A stretch of DNA of 33,424 nt from Flavobacteriales bacterium (lineage in GTDB: Bacteria > Bacteroidota > Bacteroidia > Flavobacteriales > Flavobacteriaceae). The position numbers and the translations under genes are program-made. The stretch lies in assembly GCA_027061855.1 (NCBI GenBank), contig JAMOVT010000081.1, positions 1-33,424 on the forward strand. Direction: 5' to 3'. The notes below the pieces were generated by a model, which was not told the origin of the DNA, did not search any database, and worked only from the letters and a program-made list of their open reading frames with translations. How positions within the stretch are numbered: position 1 is the stretch's first letter; each line of letters opens with the position of its first letter. Below, one piece after another: positions 8,286 to 33,424 of this stretch.

Positions 8286-9683
8286 ATGAAATATAGAATT
8301 GAACACGATACCATAGGAGAAGTAAAAGTCCCCGCTGATAAATACTGGGGTGCACAAACAGAACGTTCCAGAAATAACTTTAAGATTGGGCCCGAAGCTT
8401 CAATGCCTAAAGAAATCATCGATGCTTTTGCCATTCTAAAAAAAGCAGCTGCCTATACCAATCATGAATTGGGGGTATTACCCAAAGACAAAAGAGATTT
8501 AATCGCACAGGTAGCCGATGAAGTATTGGAAGGGAAATTATATGATCAATTTCCTTTGGTAATATGGCAAACCGGCTCGGGAACACAAAGCAATATGAAT
8601 TTTAATGAAGTGGTTTCCAATCGTGCCCATGTTTTAATGGGGAACAAACTCGGAGAAGGAGAAAAATATATTCACCCGAATGATGACGTTAACAAATCAC
8701 AATCTTCCAATGATACGTTTCCCACAGCCATGCATATTGCTCTTTATAAAAAGATAGTGGAAAAGACTATTCCCGGATTGGAAATGCTTCGAGATGCCTT
8801 GGCAAAAAAATCCGAAGAGTTTATGAAAGTCGTCAAAATCGGGCGAACCCATTTGATGGATGCCACTCCCCTTACCTTAGGACAAGAATTCTCGGGATAT
8901 GTAGCACAATTGGATCATGGAATCAAAGCGCTGAAAAACACTTTGGATCATTTAAGTGAATTAGCCTTAGGAGGGACTGCCGTCGGAACGGGAATCAACA
9001 CTCCCGAAGGCTATGATGTGACTGTTGCCAAACATATTGCCGAAATGACAGGTCTTCCGTTTAGAACCGCTGAAAATAAATTTGAAGCCTTGGCTGCTCA
9101 CGATGCCATCGTAGAAACACACGGAGCTTTAAAACTACTGGCAGTATCTATCAATAAAATTGCCAATGATATCCGTTTATTGGCTTCCGGTCCACGATCC
9201 GGAATTGGAGAAATTATCATTCCCGCCAATGAACCCGGAAGTTCAATTATGCCCGGAAAAGTAAATCCGACACAAGCAGAAGCCATCACCATGGTTGCAG
9301 CTCAAATTATGGGAAATGATGTGGCGATCACTGTCGGAGGAACACAAGGTCATTATGAATTGAATGTATTTAAACCCATGATGATCTACAATGCCTTGCA
9401 ATCGGCCGATTTGCTGGGAGATGCAGCCGTATCCTTTACCAAAAATCTTATAGAAGGGATTGAACCCAACTATAAACGAATAGAAGAATTGTTGAACAAT
9501 TCCCTTATGTTGGTCACCGCATTAAATCCTCATATCGGATATGAGAAAGCTGCAAAAATTGCCAAGACCGCTCATAAAGAAGGAACCAGCCTCAAAGAAG
9601 CGGCTGTAAAATTGGGAATTTTAACAGAAGAGGAATTCGACAAATATGTTGTTCCCGAAAAAATGGTTGGAAAAATAAATTAA
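8286..9683 (+). CDS. fumC: Class II fumarate hydratase
   Basis: The 465-residue protein has the normal length of class II fumarases (iron-independent homotetramers of the aspartase/fumarase superfamily), which interconvert fumarate and malate in the TCA cycle. The superfamily signature [10 protein letters not shown] is at 318-327. Other conserved patches are [31 protein letters not shown] and [11 protein letters not shown], which bind substrate and supply the catalytic residues. It starts with a clear ATG after a consensus promoter and ends at an intrinsic terminator, so it is a single-gene unit. The possibility of aspartase is small, because the [10 protein letters not shown] and [11 protein letters not shown] patches follow fumarase closely. 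Confidence 0.96.
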
Positions 9684-9703
9684 TTTGTTTTTAGTGATAA
9701 TAG

Positions 9704-9736
9704 AAAGGCTGTTCTCTATATGGGGAGCAGCTTTTT
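9704..9736 (+). terminator. Intrinsic terminator of the fumarase gene
   Basis: AAAGGCTGTTCTC pairs, with a few G-T pairs, with GGGGAGCAGCTTT around a short TATAT loop, followed by a T run to 9736. It begins 20 bases after the fumC stop. Confidence 0.8.
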
Positions 9737-9740
9737 ATCA

Positions 9741-9956
9741 CGCATTATTCATGAAATTAGCTTTATGCAGATACGAGGCATCGAAATCCGCAGGAATACT
9801 TGCGTATTTCAAGGTTTTTGTAACGAAGTAGGTGCGTGAAGATAATTTCAAGGCACATTCAAATTTGGGTATGTTTATTTCTAACAAATATTGTTTGTCC
9901 CCTTGAGCTTTTATTGCGTTTGTTTGTAAAATTTATAATAACCGATGAATAATGCG
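9741..9956. mobile_element. MITE-like element with 12-bp perfect terminal inverted repeats
   Basis: CGCATTATTCAT (9741-9752) is the exact reverse complement of ATGAATAATGCG (9945-9956). The repeats bound 216 bases that fit no neighbouring gene. Inside lies a hairpin (9783-9810; 10-position stem with one mismatch, 8-base loop). On the minus strand a 64-codon frame without a usable start (9738-9932) remains open and could be a coding remnant. No transposase is present, so mobility in trans would be required. The element lies between the fumarase terminator and the stop of the glycosyltransferase gene, only 2 bases from the latter. No clear target-site duplication is seen. One copy only is visible, so the mobile nature is inference. 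Confidence 0.5.
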
Positions 9957-9958
9957 GA

Positions 9959-10870
9959 TTATATTAATCCAAGATATACTTTGGTTTTCCACCAACGAAC
10001 TTTGATCAACATTCCGAATTTTTCCCATTGTGAGGTAAAAATATAATAGAAACCAAGTGGAATCAATGCAAACCAACGTAATAATTCTTTCAACAAAAGA
10101 ACAATGTAGGCAATAAAACCCTTTTCTTTGGCGATCTCTTTCTTGATTTTGGCGGTTTCAATTATATGTTCTTTTACGTATTGTTTTGATAATTTTTCTT
10201 GCGGTATAAAATGCCAAACCACCAAGTCATGAAAGTAGTAAACAGGGATTCCCGCTTGTCGCACACGCTTGAAGAAATCTGCTTCGAGTAATCCGGGAAC
10301 AAAATCTTCTTTACCTCCAAACAAATCGGTTTTAAATTTTCCCAATTTATCAAATACATCTTTGGAAATCAGCATATTGGTTCCGAAGGGATGTTTCTTT
10401 TTCGGAAACTTACTGCGTTGCCCAAGGTCGATTTCGGCAAAAACAGGCATGATAAATTTATTGATCCAGGCAGGTTTTTGCGATTCGAATACCGGTGAAA
10501 TATGTCCACCTCCGGTTATATTTTTAACAGGTGACCTGAAATCGTCCGAAAGTAATTTAAAATAATCCTGATGAAGAGTTACATCATCATCAAAAAACAC
10601 CAATAATTCGCCTTGTGCTTCTTCCACTCCCCTATTCCACGCATGTACTAATCCCTCTTTGGGTTCTTTGATATATTTTATAAAGGAAAACTGCGGATGA
10701 TTATGAATAAATTCTTTTAACTGCTTTTTCACGTCATTGGTCGAATTATTATCGATAATCAGAATTTCAAATTCATCGGGATTAAATTCTTGAACCGTTA
10801 AACTTTCCAATAATTCGCCCAATAAAACCGGCCGGTTGTACGTAGGTATTATAACACTAAACTTCTTCAT
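9959..10870 (-). CDS. Family 2 glycosyltransferase
   Basis: The 303-residue protein starts with the GT2 nucleotide-sugar fold: FSVIIPTYNRPVLLGELLES, then ILIIDNNSTND (D40) and the DxD-type motif FFDDDVT (D94-D96), which binds the metal and the UDP- or GDP-sugar. The acceptor half contains LGGK-like and ED-like features (FGGKEDFVPGLLEADFF) where the catalytic base is expected. A hydrophobic stretch near the C-terminus (IVLLLKELLRWFALIPLGFY) may attach it to the inner membrane face. Its start overlaps the end of the YfhO-family gene by 14 bases, so translation is probably coupled and the two should work in one glycan pathway. The sugar cannot be told. Confidence 0.9.
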   Translation of the reverse strand: MKKFSVIIPTYNRPVLLGELLESLTVQEFNPDEFEILIIDNNSTNDVKKQLKEFIHNHPQFSFIKYIKEPKEGLVHAWNRGVEEAQGELLVFFDDDVTLHQDYFKLLSDDFRSPVKNITGGGHISPVFESQKPAWINKFIMPVFAEIDLGQRSKFPKKKHPFGTNMLISKDVFDKLGKFKTDLFGGKEDFVPGLLEADFFKRVRQAGIPVYYFHDLVVWHFIPQEKLSKQYVKEHIIETAKIKKEIAKEKGFIAYIVLLLKELLRWFALIPLGFYYIFTSQWEKFGMLIKVRWWKTKVYLGLI

Positions 10871-13469: not shown

Positions 13470-15380
13470 ATGGATTATAAGAGCTTACAATACACAAAAC
13501 CGGGGCAATTTGAAGATACACGTTATGAAAAAATTCATAATGTAATCTTTGATGACCGCAATTCTGCATCAATTCAGGTTGCCCGCGAAATAGCCGATTT
13601 AATCCGTACCAACAATGAAAAAGGAAAAAACACAGTTTTGGGATTGGCTACCGGTTCTTCTCCGGTTAAAGTCTATGAAGAACTTATCCGTTTACATAAA
13701 GAAGAAGGTTTGAGTTTCCGGAATGTAATTACTTTTAATTTGGACGAATACTATCCCATTTCACCAGATGACATCAATTCCTATCATTATTTCATGAATG
13801 AATATCTCTTTAAACATATCGATATCAAAAAAGAGAACATTCATATTCCGAAGGGAGACCTCAAACCCGAAGAAATTAAAAATTTCTGTATCTCTTATGA
13901 AAAGAAAATTGAAGAGGCCGGAGGAATCGATTTCCAATTGCTGGGTATCGGACGAACGGGACATATAGGTTTTAATGAGCCCGGATCCCATAAAAATTCC
14001 CGTACACGTTTGATCACCCTAAACCATATTACCCGTATTGATGCCGCCGAGGCTTTTAACGGACTAAAAAATGTTCCCACCAAAGCCATCACCATGGGAA
14101 TTGCCAGTATTATGCAATCCAAACGAATCATTTTGCTGGCTTGGGGTGAAAAAAAAGCAGATATCATCAAAGAAACCATTGAAGGAAATATTTCCTCAAA
14201 TGTGCCTGCCACCTATCTCCAAGAACATCCCAATACTACCTTTGTTCTTGATAAAGATGCTGCACAAAAACTCACACGAATTGACACTCCTTGGATGGTT
14301 AAAGATGTGGAATGGAATTCCTACAATACAAAAAAAGCCGTCACTTGGTTGAGCAATAAAATAAATAAACCGGTTTTAAAACTTACCGATAACGATTACA
14401 ATATCAATTCATTGGCCGATTTAATAGCTACCGAAGGAACTGCATACGATTTAAACATTAAAATATTTAATGCGCTTCAACATACCATTACTGGATGGCC
14501 GGGAGGAAAACCCAATGCAGACGATTCTCATCGTCCGGAACGAGCCGAGCCTGCAAAAAAACGGATAATTATTTTTAGTCCGCACCCCGATGACGATGTG
14601 ATTTCCATGGGAGGAACTTTTGACCGGTTGATCCAACAAGGACACGAAGTACATGTTGCTTACCAAACTTCGGGAAGCAATGCGGTAACCGATGAAGAAG
14701 CCTTAAAATACCTGGAAGTTTATAAACATTTATTTTCTAACAGAGAGATAGAAGAACTTATCCGTTTTATTCAAAACAGAGATAGCTCGCAAGCAGATAT
14801 TCCTTTACTGAGGAAAGTAAAAGCATATGTACGTCGTGCCGAAGCTTTGGCTTCCGTACGCTTTTTGGGCTTAGCCGATACCAATGTTCATTTTCTCGAT
14901 TTGCCTTTTTATGATAAAAATCCGCTTTTAAAAAGAAAAATCGAAGAGCCGGACTTGCAAATTATGGAGAATTTAATGGAGAATATAAAGCCGCATCAAA
15001 TTTTTGCCGCAGGCGATTTGGCCGATCCCCATGGTACCCATCGAATTACTTTTGATTTATTATCTTTGGTGTTGAAAAAAATTAAAAAACAAAATTGGAC
15101 CAATGATTTGAGAGTATGGCTTTATAGAGGAGCCTGGGGCGAATTTGAAGTGTATGACATCGATATGGCTGTTCCGATGAGTCCTGCACAAGTACAAAGA
15201 AAAAGACAAGCCATTTTCTATCATCAAACCCAAAAGGACAATGTAATGTTCAAAGGCGAAGATGAAAGAGAATTTTGGCAACGCGTAGAAGAAAGAAACA
15301 AAAGGCTGGCGCAAAAATACCACCAATTAGGATTGGCTGATTATGAAGCGATGGAAGCCTTTAAAAGATTATATTTTTAA
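13470..15380 (+). CDS. nagB: Glucosamine-6-phosphate deaminase fused to a PIG-L/LmbE deacetylase-like domain
   Basis: The 636-residue protein has two domains. Residues about 25-280 are NagB-like: GLATGSSP (58-65, phosphate loop), LDEYYP with D92, and GIGRTGHIGFNEPGS (159-173) with H165 and E170. In the classical enzyme the base before GH is Asp (GNDGH), but here it is T163. Residues about 366-600 are a PIG-L/LmbE domain with the zinc motif SPHPDDD (370-376) and DPHGTHR later in the domain, giving a possible N-deacetylase. The fusion occurs in Bacteroidota and could couple deacetylation of an amino sugar with deamination of GlcN-6-P to fructose-6-P and ammonia. It heads an operon with pfkA (16-base gap), which uses the fructose-6-P formed. 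Confidence 0.88.
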   Translation: MDYKSLQYTKPGQFEDTRYEKIHNVIFDDRNSASIQVAREIADLIRTNNEKGKNTVLGLATGSSPVKVYEELIRLHKEEGLSFRNVITFNLDEYYPISPDDINSYHYFMNEYLFKHIDIKKENIHIPKGDLKPEEIKNFCISYEKKIEEAGGIDFQLLGIGRTGHIGFNEPGSHKNSRTRLITLNHITRIDAAEAFNGLKNVPTKAITMGIASIMQSKRIILLAWGEKKADIIKETIEGNISSNVPATYLQEHPNTTFVLDKDAAQKLTRIDTPWMVKDVEWNSYNTKKAVTWLSNKINKPVLKLTDNDYNINSLADLIATEGTAYDLNIKIFNALQHTITGWPGGKPNADDSHRPERAEPAKKRIIIFSPHPDDDVISMGGTFDRLIQQGHEVHVAYQTSGSNAVTDEEALKYLEVYKHLFSNREIEELIRFIQNRDSSQADIPLLRKVKAYVRRAEALASVRFLGLADTNVHFLDLPFYDKNPLLKRKIEEPDLQIMENLMENIKPHQIFAAGDLADPHGTHRITFDLLSLVLKKIKKQNWTNDLRVWLYRGAWGEFEVYDIDMAVPMSPAQVQRKRQAIFYHQTQKDNVMFKGEDEREFWQRVEERNKRLAQKYHQLGLADYEAMEAFKRLYF

Positions 15381-30896: not shown

Positions 30897-33424
30897 TTAT
30901 CGGTCTAAATAAATCCAATCTACAATAGGTTTCTTACCATCTTTCAAATCCAATTCATAGAAATAGGTTCCGGTGGGTAATTTCTTATCTCCTTCAATGA
31001 CCCATCTTCCATTGGATTCTCCGGTCCAATCATTATTGTAGGGATCTGCTTCATATACAAGATTTCCCCATCTATTGTAAATCTTAATCGTCGGTTTATT
31101 GTAATGATCCAGTCCGATGATTTCGAAGACATCATTTATGCCGTCTCCATTGGGGGTAAAGATATCGGGAATAATCACACCAATAGTAATTACAACAGTT
31201 GGATCATCATCTCCGTTATCAACCACTGCATTCGGATCATCTGATACATCAGTTACAGGATTTCCTTGTGGATCATAAGCCGTAACAGTAGCAGAATTTT
31301 CCACATTACCTCTTTCGATATCCTCTCTTGTAATGATATAGGTAGCAGTAAATGTAGTGGAGTCTGAATCTCCCGGAGCCAAATGCACAATAGTACCTCC
31401 TGTAACCGTCACCAAAGGATCATAAATACTTATATCGGTTAAAGTTACATTTCCGGAATTAATTACCGTGAAAGTATATGTGATTGTTTCTCCTACATTG
31501 GCTCTTTCATCTCCATTTTCATCATTAAAATGGCCTTCTTTTAATAGAGTGATTTCCGGACATTGTACAATATTGGTAATAGTTACTCCATCTGCATTTA
31601 CATCTGACGGATGAGAAAGGTCGCTCACATTATTTCCGCAAGCATCTTGTGCTGTCACTTCCGCTTGGTTGTCAAAATGTCCGGCATCAATATTTTCCTG
31701 TGTAACTGCATAATTGGCCGTATAAATCCAAACTTCATTAATATCTAAGATATTGTCCCCGTTATCATCTCCCGAAACAAAAGTAGGTGTAATTCCCAAA
31801 TTGCTCAAAACACTATCATTGAGGTTTATATTACTTAAAGCGATATTACCTCGATTGGATATCTCAAAAGTAAATTGAATTTCATCTCCCACTTTGGCAC
31901 AAGAAGTGGTAAAGTTAGAGGTTTTTATCAATGCAATATCCGGATTTAGAGGGATAGTTATTTCGGTCGGATCATCGGGATCATTTTCCGGATCATTATC
32001 ATCGGGACTATCTATATTTGCTGACACATTGGGATCATCGGAATAGTTATTATAATGCAGATTCAAAGCATCATATTCTATTTCCGCTTGATTAACCACT
32101 TTACCACAATTATCAATATCCGATTGCTGTATAATATAGTCCAAAACAACTACCTCACTTTCTCCCGGATTCAAAGCGCCGGTTCCTACTGGTTGTTGTA
32201 TAATTCCAAGTAAATTATCATTCAAAACAATATTGGTTGATTCAACATTTCCTGTATTTGTAACCGTAATTGTATATCTAATGATTTCTCCTGCTTCGAT
32301 TTGACCGTCATTATCCGAATCGATTAATTGTGCTTCTTTTGTTATAGACATATACGGAAGTAAATAAGGAGTAAGGTCTGTTATTGTTGAATCATCAGGA
32401 TCATCATTCGGCTCGGTATCATTATTATCCACATCATTATTGTCATCGGGATCATCCGAAGCATTGGTATAATGATTCCCTTGAGGATCATCATAAGCAA
32501 ATAAAGCTGAATTGACCACTTCTCCCGAATTGATATCTGTTTGAGTAATGGTATAATCCGCATTATAAACCCAAGTCTCTCCTACATCCAAAATTCCATC
32601 ATTATCAATATCTCCATTAAGCAATTGGATACTTCCTCCTGCATTAGTGATTAAATCATCAGTCAACACAGGATTCAAAATCGAAATATTTCCGGTATTT
32701 TGAACTGTAATGGTATAATGAATTATATCCCCGGCATAAAGTAACCCATCAATACCTAAATCAAGATTATCAATTTTTATAACAGATAAGGAATTTATTT
32801 GATCAATATTCGTAATAGTAGGATCATTCACATCTAGAGTGTCAGGATCGTCTGAAACTTCAGATAAAACTACACCCGTTCCTGTTTCGGCTCCAACTAT
32901 TGCCTGGTTACTAACTTGTCCGGCATCAATATCGGATTGTAATAAAATGTATTCACCTGTAATTGATTCGGAATCTCCGGGATTCAAAATACCGGTTACC
33001 AGATAATTATTTAAACCGATTAAAGCATCATCAATTCTGACATTGTTCAAAGTGGTATCACCATTATTTAAAATTACAATTGTATACTCAATTTTGTCTC
33101 CTGCATTATAAATACCATCATTATTAACATCAATATAATTATCAGTTTTTGTTACAATATAACTAGGATTATTTTCATTATCAATAATAGTCACTGTACC
33201 ATTTACATTAGAATTAGAAGTATTTGCTGAGGTAATTGTACCAATAACCGCAAAATTTTCATCATTCTCATCAATTGTATCATCTATAATCGGTATACTT
33301 ACCGTTGTACTGGTGCTGCCCGCAGGAATCGTTACCGTAGTAGTCGTTCCCGTATAATCATCCGGATCAACAGCTGTTCCATCCGCAGTACTGATGTTTA
33401 TTGTTACGTCCGTAGTCGTCGGAT
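30897..33424 (-). CDS. T9SS-secreted repeat surface protein with type B gliding-motility C-terminal domain (5' end outside window)
   Basis: The frame is open to the right edge, so at least 841 residues are visible and the true start is outside. The first 76 visible residues look like a Calx-beta domain (TISTADGT-like strands, SIPIIDD, VTIIDNE). Five beta-sandwich repeats of the DUF11/DUF7507 type follow. Each has YTI..NTGN or similar, then a loop such as DSDNDGQIEAGE. Acidic linkers such as DDPDDNNDVDNND separate them. The last 90 residues are the gliding-motility-associated C-terminal (type B) sorting domain, with DIFTPNGDGINDVFEI, YNRWGNLVY and the end VDWIYLDR. The protein is thus exported by T9SS and attached to the cell surface. 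A GTG at 33194 is not the start, as the coding frame continues above it. Confidence 0.93.
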   Translation of the reverse strand, partial: PTTTDVTINISTADGTAVDPDDYTGTTTTVTIPAGSTSTTVSIPIIDDTIDENDENFAVIGTITSANTSNSNVNGTVTIIDNENNPSYIVTKTDNYIDVNNDGIYNAGDKIEYTIVILNNGDTTLNNVRIDDALIGLNNYLVTGILNPGDSESITGEYILLQSDIDAGQVSNQAIVGAETGTGVVLSEVSDDPDTLDVNDPTITNIDQINSLSVIKIDNLDLGIDGLLYAGDIIHYTITVQNTGNISILNPVLTDDLITNAGGSIQLLNGDIDNDGILDVGETWVYNADYTITQTDINSGEVVNSALFAYDDPQGNHYTNASDDPDDNNDVDNNDTEPNDDPDDSTITDLTPYLLPYMSITKEAQLIDSDNDGQIEAGEIIRYTITVTNTGNVESTNIVLNDNLLGIIQQPVGTGALNPGESEVVVLDYIIQQSDIDNCGKVVNQAEIEYDALNLHYNNYSDDPNVSANIDSPDDNDPENDPDDPTEITIPLNPDIALIKTSNFTTSCAKVGDEIQFTFEISNRGNIALSNINLNDSVLSNLGITPTFVSGDDNGDNILDINEVWIYTANYAVTQENIDAGHFDNQAEVTAQDACGNNVSDLSHPSDVNADGVTITNIVQCPEITLLKEGHFNDENGDERANVGETITYTFTVINSGNVTLTDISIYDPLVTVTGGTIVHLAPGDSDSTTFTATYIITREDIERGNVENSATVTAYDPQGNPVTDVSDDPNAVVDNGDDDPTVVITIGVIIPDIFTPNGDGINDVFEIIGLDHYNKPTIKIYNRWGNLVYEADPYNNDWTGESNGRWVIEGDKKLPTGTYFYELDLKDGKKPIVDWIYLDR
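31185..33164 (-). repeat. Five tandem DUF11-type beta-sandwich repeats with DxDxDG-like loops
   Basis: Repeat units run at about 33164-32811, 32792-32376, 32360-31956, 31943-31566 and 31559-31185. Each starts with a short K/T strand and an Asp-rich loop (DVNNDG, DNLDLGIDG, DSDNDG, TTSCAKVGD, DENGDE), then YTI/YTF and NTGN/NSGN. Some carry a second loop (DIDNDG, DDNGDN). Units 2 and 4 have the longer form. Confidence 0.85.

Follow-up and report, generated by a model that had tools for sequence, protein, structure and literature searches.

Between fumC and a convergent glycosyltransferase gene, the window (the whole stretch of 33,424 nucleotides that was analysed) carries a short sequence bounded by inverted repeats, and the question raised by this locus is whether that sequence is a mobile element and, if so, of which type. 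The first-pass annotation had described a 216-bp MITE-like element at 9741-9956 whose termini match perfectly over 12 bp and no further, and these termini are indeed seen in the window, with CGCATTATTCAT at 9741-9752, its reverse complement ATGAATAATGCG at 9945-9956, and the match ending there at both sides. Taken alone, the repeat is not beyond chance: perfect inverted repeats of at least 12 bp whose arms lie 30-300 bp from each other number two in the window, and 40 Markov-1 simulations gave 1.7 on average. Outside evidence was therefore needed, and the significance comes from comparison with a family of same-ended elements. The second perfect inverted repeat (13 bp, 32692-32995) lies inside the minus-strand ORF 30897-33194 and is likewise at chance level.

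A family of elements with the same ends

Genome contigs were scanned for both 12-bp ends at a spacing of 176-236 bp, and the same two ends were recovered at the window spacing in at least 117 stretches, chiefly from Nitrospira, but also from Bacteroidales and others. Among the 80 of these matches that were listed by host, 66 belonged to Nitrospira or other Nitrospirota/Nitrospirae, 9 to Bacteroidales and 5 to other hosts (Chromatiales, Mariprofundaceae, Deltaproteobacteria and, twice, Thermodesulfobacteriota). Sequence clustering of 117 listed stretches (L070-L186) placed 97 in one Nitrospira-type cluster, comprising elements of 182-233 bp with the same 12-bp ends in at least 97 copies, and 12 in a Bacteroidales cluster.

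The flanks of these copies lay outside the query pattern. Nearly all family copies among the matches listed end in CC-CGCATTATTCAT, next to a 4-bp target duplication that is mostly YTAR. In the 113 of 117 listed stretches used for flank statistics (four with fewer than 10 bases of flank were dropped), the two positions before the ends were C in 111 and 110 cases and the two positions after them G in 107 and 110, followed mostly by YTAR. Identical 4-mers stood outside CC/GG in 67 of these 113 copies, compared with 28.0 when the right flanks were shuffled, and none of the other offsets or lengths tested gave a comparable excess; among the listed copies, 49 non-palindromic left sites included 19 direct and 2 inverted repeats. 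The excess of 4-mers and the preponderance of direct over inverted repeats demonstrate a 4-bp target duplication. A literature search found no paper giving the end sequences as strings and no title on such a family; registration in ISfinder is possible.

Boundaries of the element in the window

Applied to the window, the family rule (CC...GG plus a 4-bp duplication) shows that the 216-bp element is real but was drawn 4 bp short, the full element being 220 bp long (Table 1). The layout is TTAT-CA-CGCATTATTCAT ... ATGAATAATGCG-GA-TTAT, so that the outermost bases, CC/GG in the family, are CA and GA here. The flanking TTAT pair had been absent from the earlier description. Identical 4-mers at the same spacing occur at 215 of 33196 window positions (0.65%), and other copies (L157, L235, L239) likewise show a duplicated TTAT or the complementary ATAA. 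With its length of 220 bp, terminal inverted repeats, TTAT at both sides and no transposase gene, the element shows generic MITE traits, and the label MITE-like is borne out by the terminal repeats and target duplication, together with the absence of coding support and the presence of same-ended elements in many other genomes.

Table 1. Features of the element and of its surroundings (positions in the window)
Feature	Position	Strand	Remarks
fumC, left neighbour	8286..9683	+	Lyase_1 and FumaraseC_C domains
Hairpin with T-rich end 3' of fumC, probable terminator	9695..9740	+	fold -20.0 kcal/mol; overlaps element by 2 bases
Target duplication, left copy, TTAT	9735..9738	.	family 4-mer rule
Whole element	9739..9958	.	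220 bp; family boundary rule
Left terminal inverted repeat CACGCATTATTCAT	9739..9752	+	13/14 to consensus CCCGCATTATTCAT
64-codon frame without start	9741..9932	-	no coding support
Conserved strand-specific imperfect hairpin, left arm	9752..9850	+	alignment A1 columns 14-112
Hairpin helices	9752-9755/9847-9850, 9761-9774/9828-9841, 9777-9789/9813-9824, 9793-9799/9804-9810	+	
Interior, right part	9872..9944	.	not conserved with related copies
Right terminal inverted repeat, TCCGCATTATTCAT read inward	9945..9958	-	13/14 to consensus CCCGCATTATTCAT
Target duplication, right copy, TTAT	9959..9962	.	contains glycosyltransferase stop codon
Family 2 glycosyltransferase, right neighbour, convergent with fumC	9959..10870	-	Glycos_transf_2 domain

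Insertion site and neighbouring genes

On the left, TTAT sits in the tail of the hairpin behind fumC, for which a consensus terminator scan listed no terminator. On the right, the element abuts the glycosyltransferase stop, as had been noted; this TAA, on the minus strand at 9959-9961, is contained in the right-hand TTAT. The orthologous glycosyltransferase of the congener G001 (63% identity) ends at the same C-terminal residue by hand reading (KELLGFT-stop in the window versus KVYLGLI-stop), which indicates that duplication of TTAT preserved the stop codon and that neither fumC nor the glycosyltransferase gene was truncated. The element is missing next to the glycosyltransferase gene of G001, where other DNA follows, and next to fumC in the congener G002, where other DNA lies 3' of the gene; in both cases the neighbour differs from that in the window, and a strict empty site was not found in these two congeners compared at the neighbour genes. 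Elsewhere in the window, a 636-aa ORF (13470-15380, plus strand) combines an initial match to Glucosamine_iso with a later one to PIG-L deacetylase, and is thus a fusion of the two domains.

Copy number and relatives sharing the interior

The element is single-copy in its own genome (2.04 Mb, 95% complete), which thus lacks the many copies that are a generic MITE trait, whereas related elements are multi-copy elsewhere. The single-copy state that the first-pass annotation named as evidence against mobility therefore holds within this genome and fails for the family. Near home, relatives were scarce: DNA searches of 98 other genomes gave short weak matches only (best E 8e-4), the two 11-bp ends at window spacing occurred in no other genome among 394 of the order, and 394 genomes of the phylum gave no DNA relative at 1e-5, a weak negative with two candidates scored per genome listed. 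The window element as query had no match in phages and plasmids, Persicobacter copies included, and viral contigs scanned with three end patterns gave none.

The left arm of the window element shares 76% identity over 140 bp with L119. Related matches were obtained in the Bacteroidales genome G475 (21), in G476 (3) and in G474 (1); a DNA search of G480 yielded none. In the G475 copies with both ends visible, the flanking 4-mers were identical at 11 of 14, seven of the 21 loci being left out because no second end lay within the stretch. With L119 as query, 48 places were located on seven plasmid records of Persicobacter sp. JZB09; the copies L251-L253 are 216 bp long with TTAG or TTAA flanking both sides, and L254 and L255 have unequal flanking 4-mers. 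The right part of the interior is variable among related copies. Two loci depart from the common layout: in the Persicobacter copy L250 (1631-3128), the right end was not found within reach and ORFs resembling inserted transposases follow the left arm, and in L222 (1422-1662) the left terminal repeat is interrupted by extra bases.

Proposed assignment to the IS1380 type

The ends and the 4-bp duplication resemble those of IS1380-family insertion sequences, and on this likeness the element is read as a putative IS1380-type MITE. L197 has TTAA-CCTGAATTATGCAT at both sides, and L217, from the same taxonomic family as the window, is a 1597-bp element with the structure TTAA-CCCACATTATTCAT ... ATGAATTATTCGGG-TTAA (its right end also given as CCCGAATAATTCAT-TTAA) and an open frame covering profile positions 162-429 only. 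The two arms of L217 match the consensus CCCGCATTATTCAT at 13/14 and 12/14 positions, and the likeness of IS1380 ends is weaker or absent elsewhere. In a further search of IS1380 loci, which required CC/GG and equal 4-mers so that arm similarity alone counts as free evidence, arm-to-arm matches were 14/14 in L249, 11/14 in L247 (annotated ISAcr4) and 10/14 in L246, and weak in L245 and L248 (8/14 each); in L244 no ends were found under the rule of CC/GG and equal 4-mers. IS1247, another member of the family, is printed with a 5-bp duplication. The interior of the window element has no convincing match to the IS1380 loci compared.

Profile PF13701 (IS1380 family) matched 4 of the 12 genomes searched; it was absent from the other eight, several of which contain family copies, among them the genome of L070 with at least three. 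The window's own genome (G000) gave no match at E 1e-5, and of 299 genomes in its taxonomic family two matched the profile at E 1e-60. A transposase with the same ends, to which the first-pass annotation had pointed, exists in approximate form in L217, with TTAA at both sides, and no autonomous partner with exactly these ends was found. Long-distance end pairs in L080, L094, L131, L154 and L168 were rejected as partners, having by eye no recognisable transposase ORF, as was a full-length Persicobacter IS1380 with differing ends. Near-identical IS1380-family elements of Persicobacter (L257-L259, L262, L263, L268) bear the quite different ends CCTTATATCCGCAAG / CTTGCGGATTTCAGG, and the IS1380 family thus has more than one end type.

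A conserved hairpin in the left arm

The small hairpin noted earlier at 9783-9810 can form in the window, but relatives have not preserved it, and it represents a local alternative to the larger conserved hairpin at 9752-9850. Ten aligned left arms, six of them Persicobacter copies so that independent lineages are few, form one long imperfect hairpin with 98.1% of cells paired, compared with 35-56% in slid controls, and 15 of its 32 pairs changed on both sides, a level of covariation reached in none of 500 shuffles by any measure. The fold is strand-specific (-35.0 kcal/mol on the plus strand versus -16.5 kcal/mol on the minus strand), and none of 200 column shuffles was as low on either strand.

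The corresponding covariance model matches the window at 9739-9871 with 122.1 bits and finds divergent copies outside its training set (L125, L142, L154, L083, L259, L260 and more places in L252-L254). In the 27 model matches (25 distinct), whose alignment was fitted to the structure, 92.3% of cells pair, 22 of 32 pairs changed on both sides, and both-side-changed cells number 144 versus 52.5 after shuffling. Free alignment of 16 sequences with MAFFT yields a shortened hairpin in which 15 of 22 pairs show both-side changes, with a weak fold of -9.15 kcal/mol. G-U exceeds A-C by 84 to 14 in the 25 distinct sequences, whose cells share ancestry; the window copy itself has 27 Watson-Crick pairs, four G-U, no A-C and one other. 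No covariance model of Rfam 15 matched 9752-9850 with E as high as 5 allowed, or the family elements in eight loci at E up to 1.

The left-arm model has no match among the Nitrospira-type elements at E 0.01. Their interiors nevertheless fold end to end: in 50 distinct copies (of the 98 matched elements, 53 passed a selection on length and score), the fold is -68.3 versus -44.8 on the other strand, both-side changes affect 23 of 60 pairs, and there are 193 G-U against 37 A-C. Relative to the strand of the fold, the upstream gene is sense in 46 and antisense in 42 of 98 Nitrospira-type copies; in 26 Bacteroidota copies (32 listed minus six with repeated left flanks) the upstream gene leans mildly to sense (14 versus 9 antisense) and the downstream gene to antisense (15 versus 7 sense). 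Since the strand is near even relative to neighbouring genes, a role in host mRNA is unlikely, and the fold, if selected, would serve the element rather than a host gene.

The 64-codon frame

A start-less minus-strand frame of 64 codons exists as the first-pass annotation had it, but the idea of a transposon-gene remnant found no support. Searches of Pfam (to E 0.01) and NCBIfam (to E 0.1) gave no match for the frame, its differences from L119 are spread evenly over codon positions (10, 9, 11), and in Persicobacter copies it is broken by 1-nt gaps; a coding remnant was accordingly rejected. Counter to this rejection, some Bacteroidales pairs have a third-position excess (7, 3, 13 for L119/L141), which is tentatively put down to the stem. 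Protein relatives of the frame, sought in 148 genomes besides the window's own, gave a best E of 0.03 with internal stops, and there were none in plasmids.

Origin of the element and alternative explanations

Taken together, the ends, the target duplication, the same-ended family, the copy numbers elsewhere and the covariation point with good probability to a non-autonomous MITE with IS1380-type ends at 9739-9958, now an orphan, which was inserted in trans at TTAT and kept the hairpin of its left arm. The 14-bp ends were probably recognised in trans by a transposase of the IS1380 family, and insertion would have taken place at TTAT, between the hairpin on the fumC side and the glycosyltransferase stop codon, the duplication retaining that codon and leaving both genes at full length. 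The present copy would be an orphan in a genome without the transposase, its hairpin presumably maintained by compensatory changes among Bacteroidota family members.

That the locus is ordinary intergenic DNA with a fortuitous inverted repeat is refuted by the family comparison and can be given practically no weight: the 12-bp repeat is within chance expectation, the copy is single and no relative was found in the sampled order and phylum genomes, but the same two ends recur with constant flanks and duplications in at least 117 stretches, the left arm is 76% identical to L119, and TTAT stands at both sides. It is improbable, though less so, that a transposase of another family mobilised the MITE and that its IS1380-like ends arose by chance or convergence. 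The lack of an IS1380 transposase in eight of 12 genomes and of an autonomous partner with exact ends would favour such an origin; against it, several independent IS1380 elements agree with the window element in their ends, CC start and 4-bp repeats, and one of them, from a genome of the same taxonomic family, has an arm matching at 13/14.

Other readings concern the fold. A role for the host, as a regulatory RNA or as a structure at the 3' end of fumC or of the glycosyltransferase gene, would be in keeping with the convergent gap, the conserved fold and the antisense downstream gene in 15 of 22 Bacteroidota copies; it would also agree with the 19 Bacteroidota copies that have a gene within 400 bp on either side, of which 7 lie between convergent genes and one between divergent ones. 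The near-even strand relative to flanking genes (46/42 Nitrospira-type; 14/9 Bacteroidota) and the fumC of G002 without the element downstream make such a role very unlikely. The main alternative for the covariation invokes no selection: template switching would correct one arm of a quasi-palindrome against the other. This mechanism is known for quasi-palindromes, and the Nitrospira-type interiors, unrelated in sequence, likewise fold end to end. However, template switching should yield Watson-Crick pairs on both strands, whereas folding is much stronger on the plus strand and G-U outnumbers A-C (84 to 14, in cells sharing ancestry), so that it is possible but on the unlikely side. That the hairpin of the IS1380-type MITE is a functional structured RNA or single-stranded DNA signal that an IS1380-type transposase requires for mobilising it, or that aids this step, a principle kept in the unrelated Nitrospira interiors, is a doubtful proposal.

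Significance and comparison with known elements

Read as an IS1380-type MITE, orphaned and with a conserved hairpin in one arm, the fragment is linked to a set of tiny transposons whose ends are near-identical across Nitrospira, Bacteroidota, Thermodesulfobacteriota and proteobacteria; mobilisation by IS1380 transposases offers a testable model for the whole set. A covarying, strand-specific hairpin missing from Rfam is kept in at least the Bacteroidota branch; if this fold is selected, it would point to a stage of the MITE's life that involves RNA or a single strand, unexpected for the passenger of a cut-and-paste transposase.

The Nitrospira-type elements (L070 and the cluster of 97 of 117 listed) resemble the window element in their 12-bp ends, CC/GG, YTAR duplication and size class, and its left arm in the strand asymmetry of the fold, theirs running end to end, but their GC-rich interior is unrelated. 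BOX, ERIC and Correia elements are small non-coding repeats mobilised in trans that form hairpins when transcribed; they resemble the window element in size, non-coding character and hairpin, and differ in ends, hosts and transposases. IS1380-family elements (PF13701, NF033539) share with it the approximate end form CC-[C/T/G]-G-N-AT-NN-T-N-CA-[T/C] and 4-bp repeats, theirs being TTAA, CTAA or CTAT (L197, L217, L249, L246, L247), from which it departs in having no transposase and 220 bp instead of 1597-1795 bp (L217, L197). IS1380 is described as a distant prokaryotic relative of piggyBac (PMC10140906). piggyBac is eukaryotic, and the kinship runs through the transposase, which the window element is without; the two are nonetheless alike in a TTAA-like 4-bp duplication and terminal repeats of about 14 bp starting with CC.
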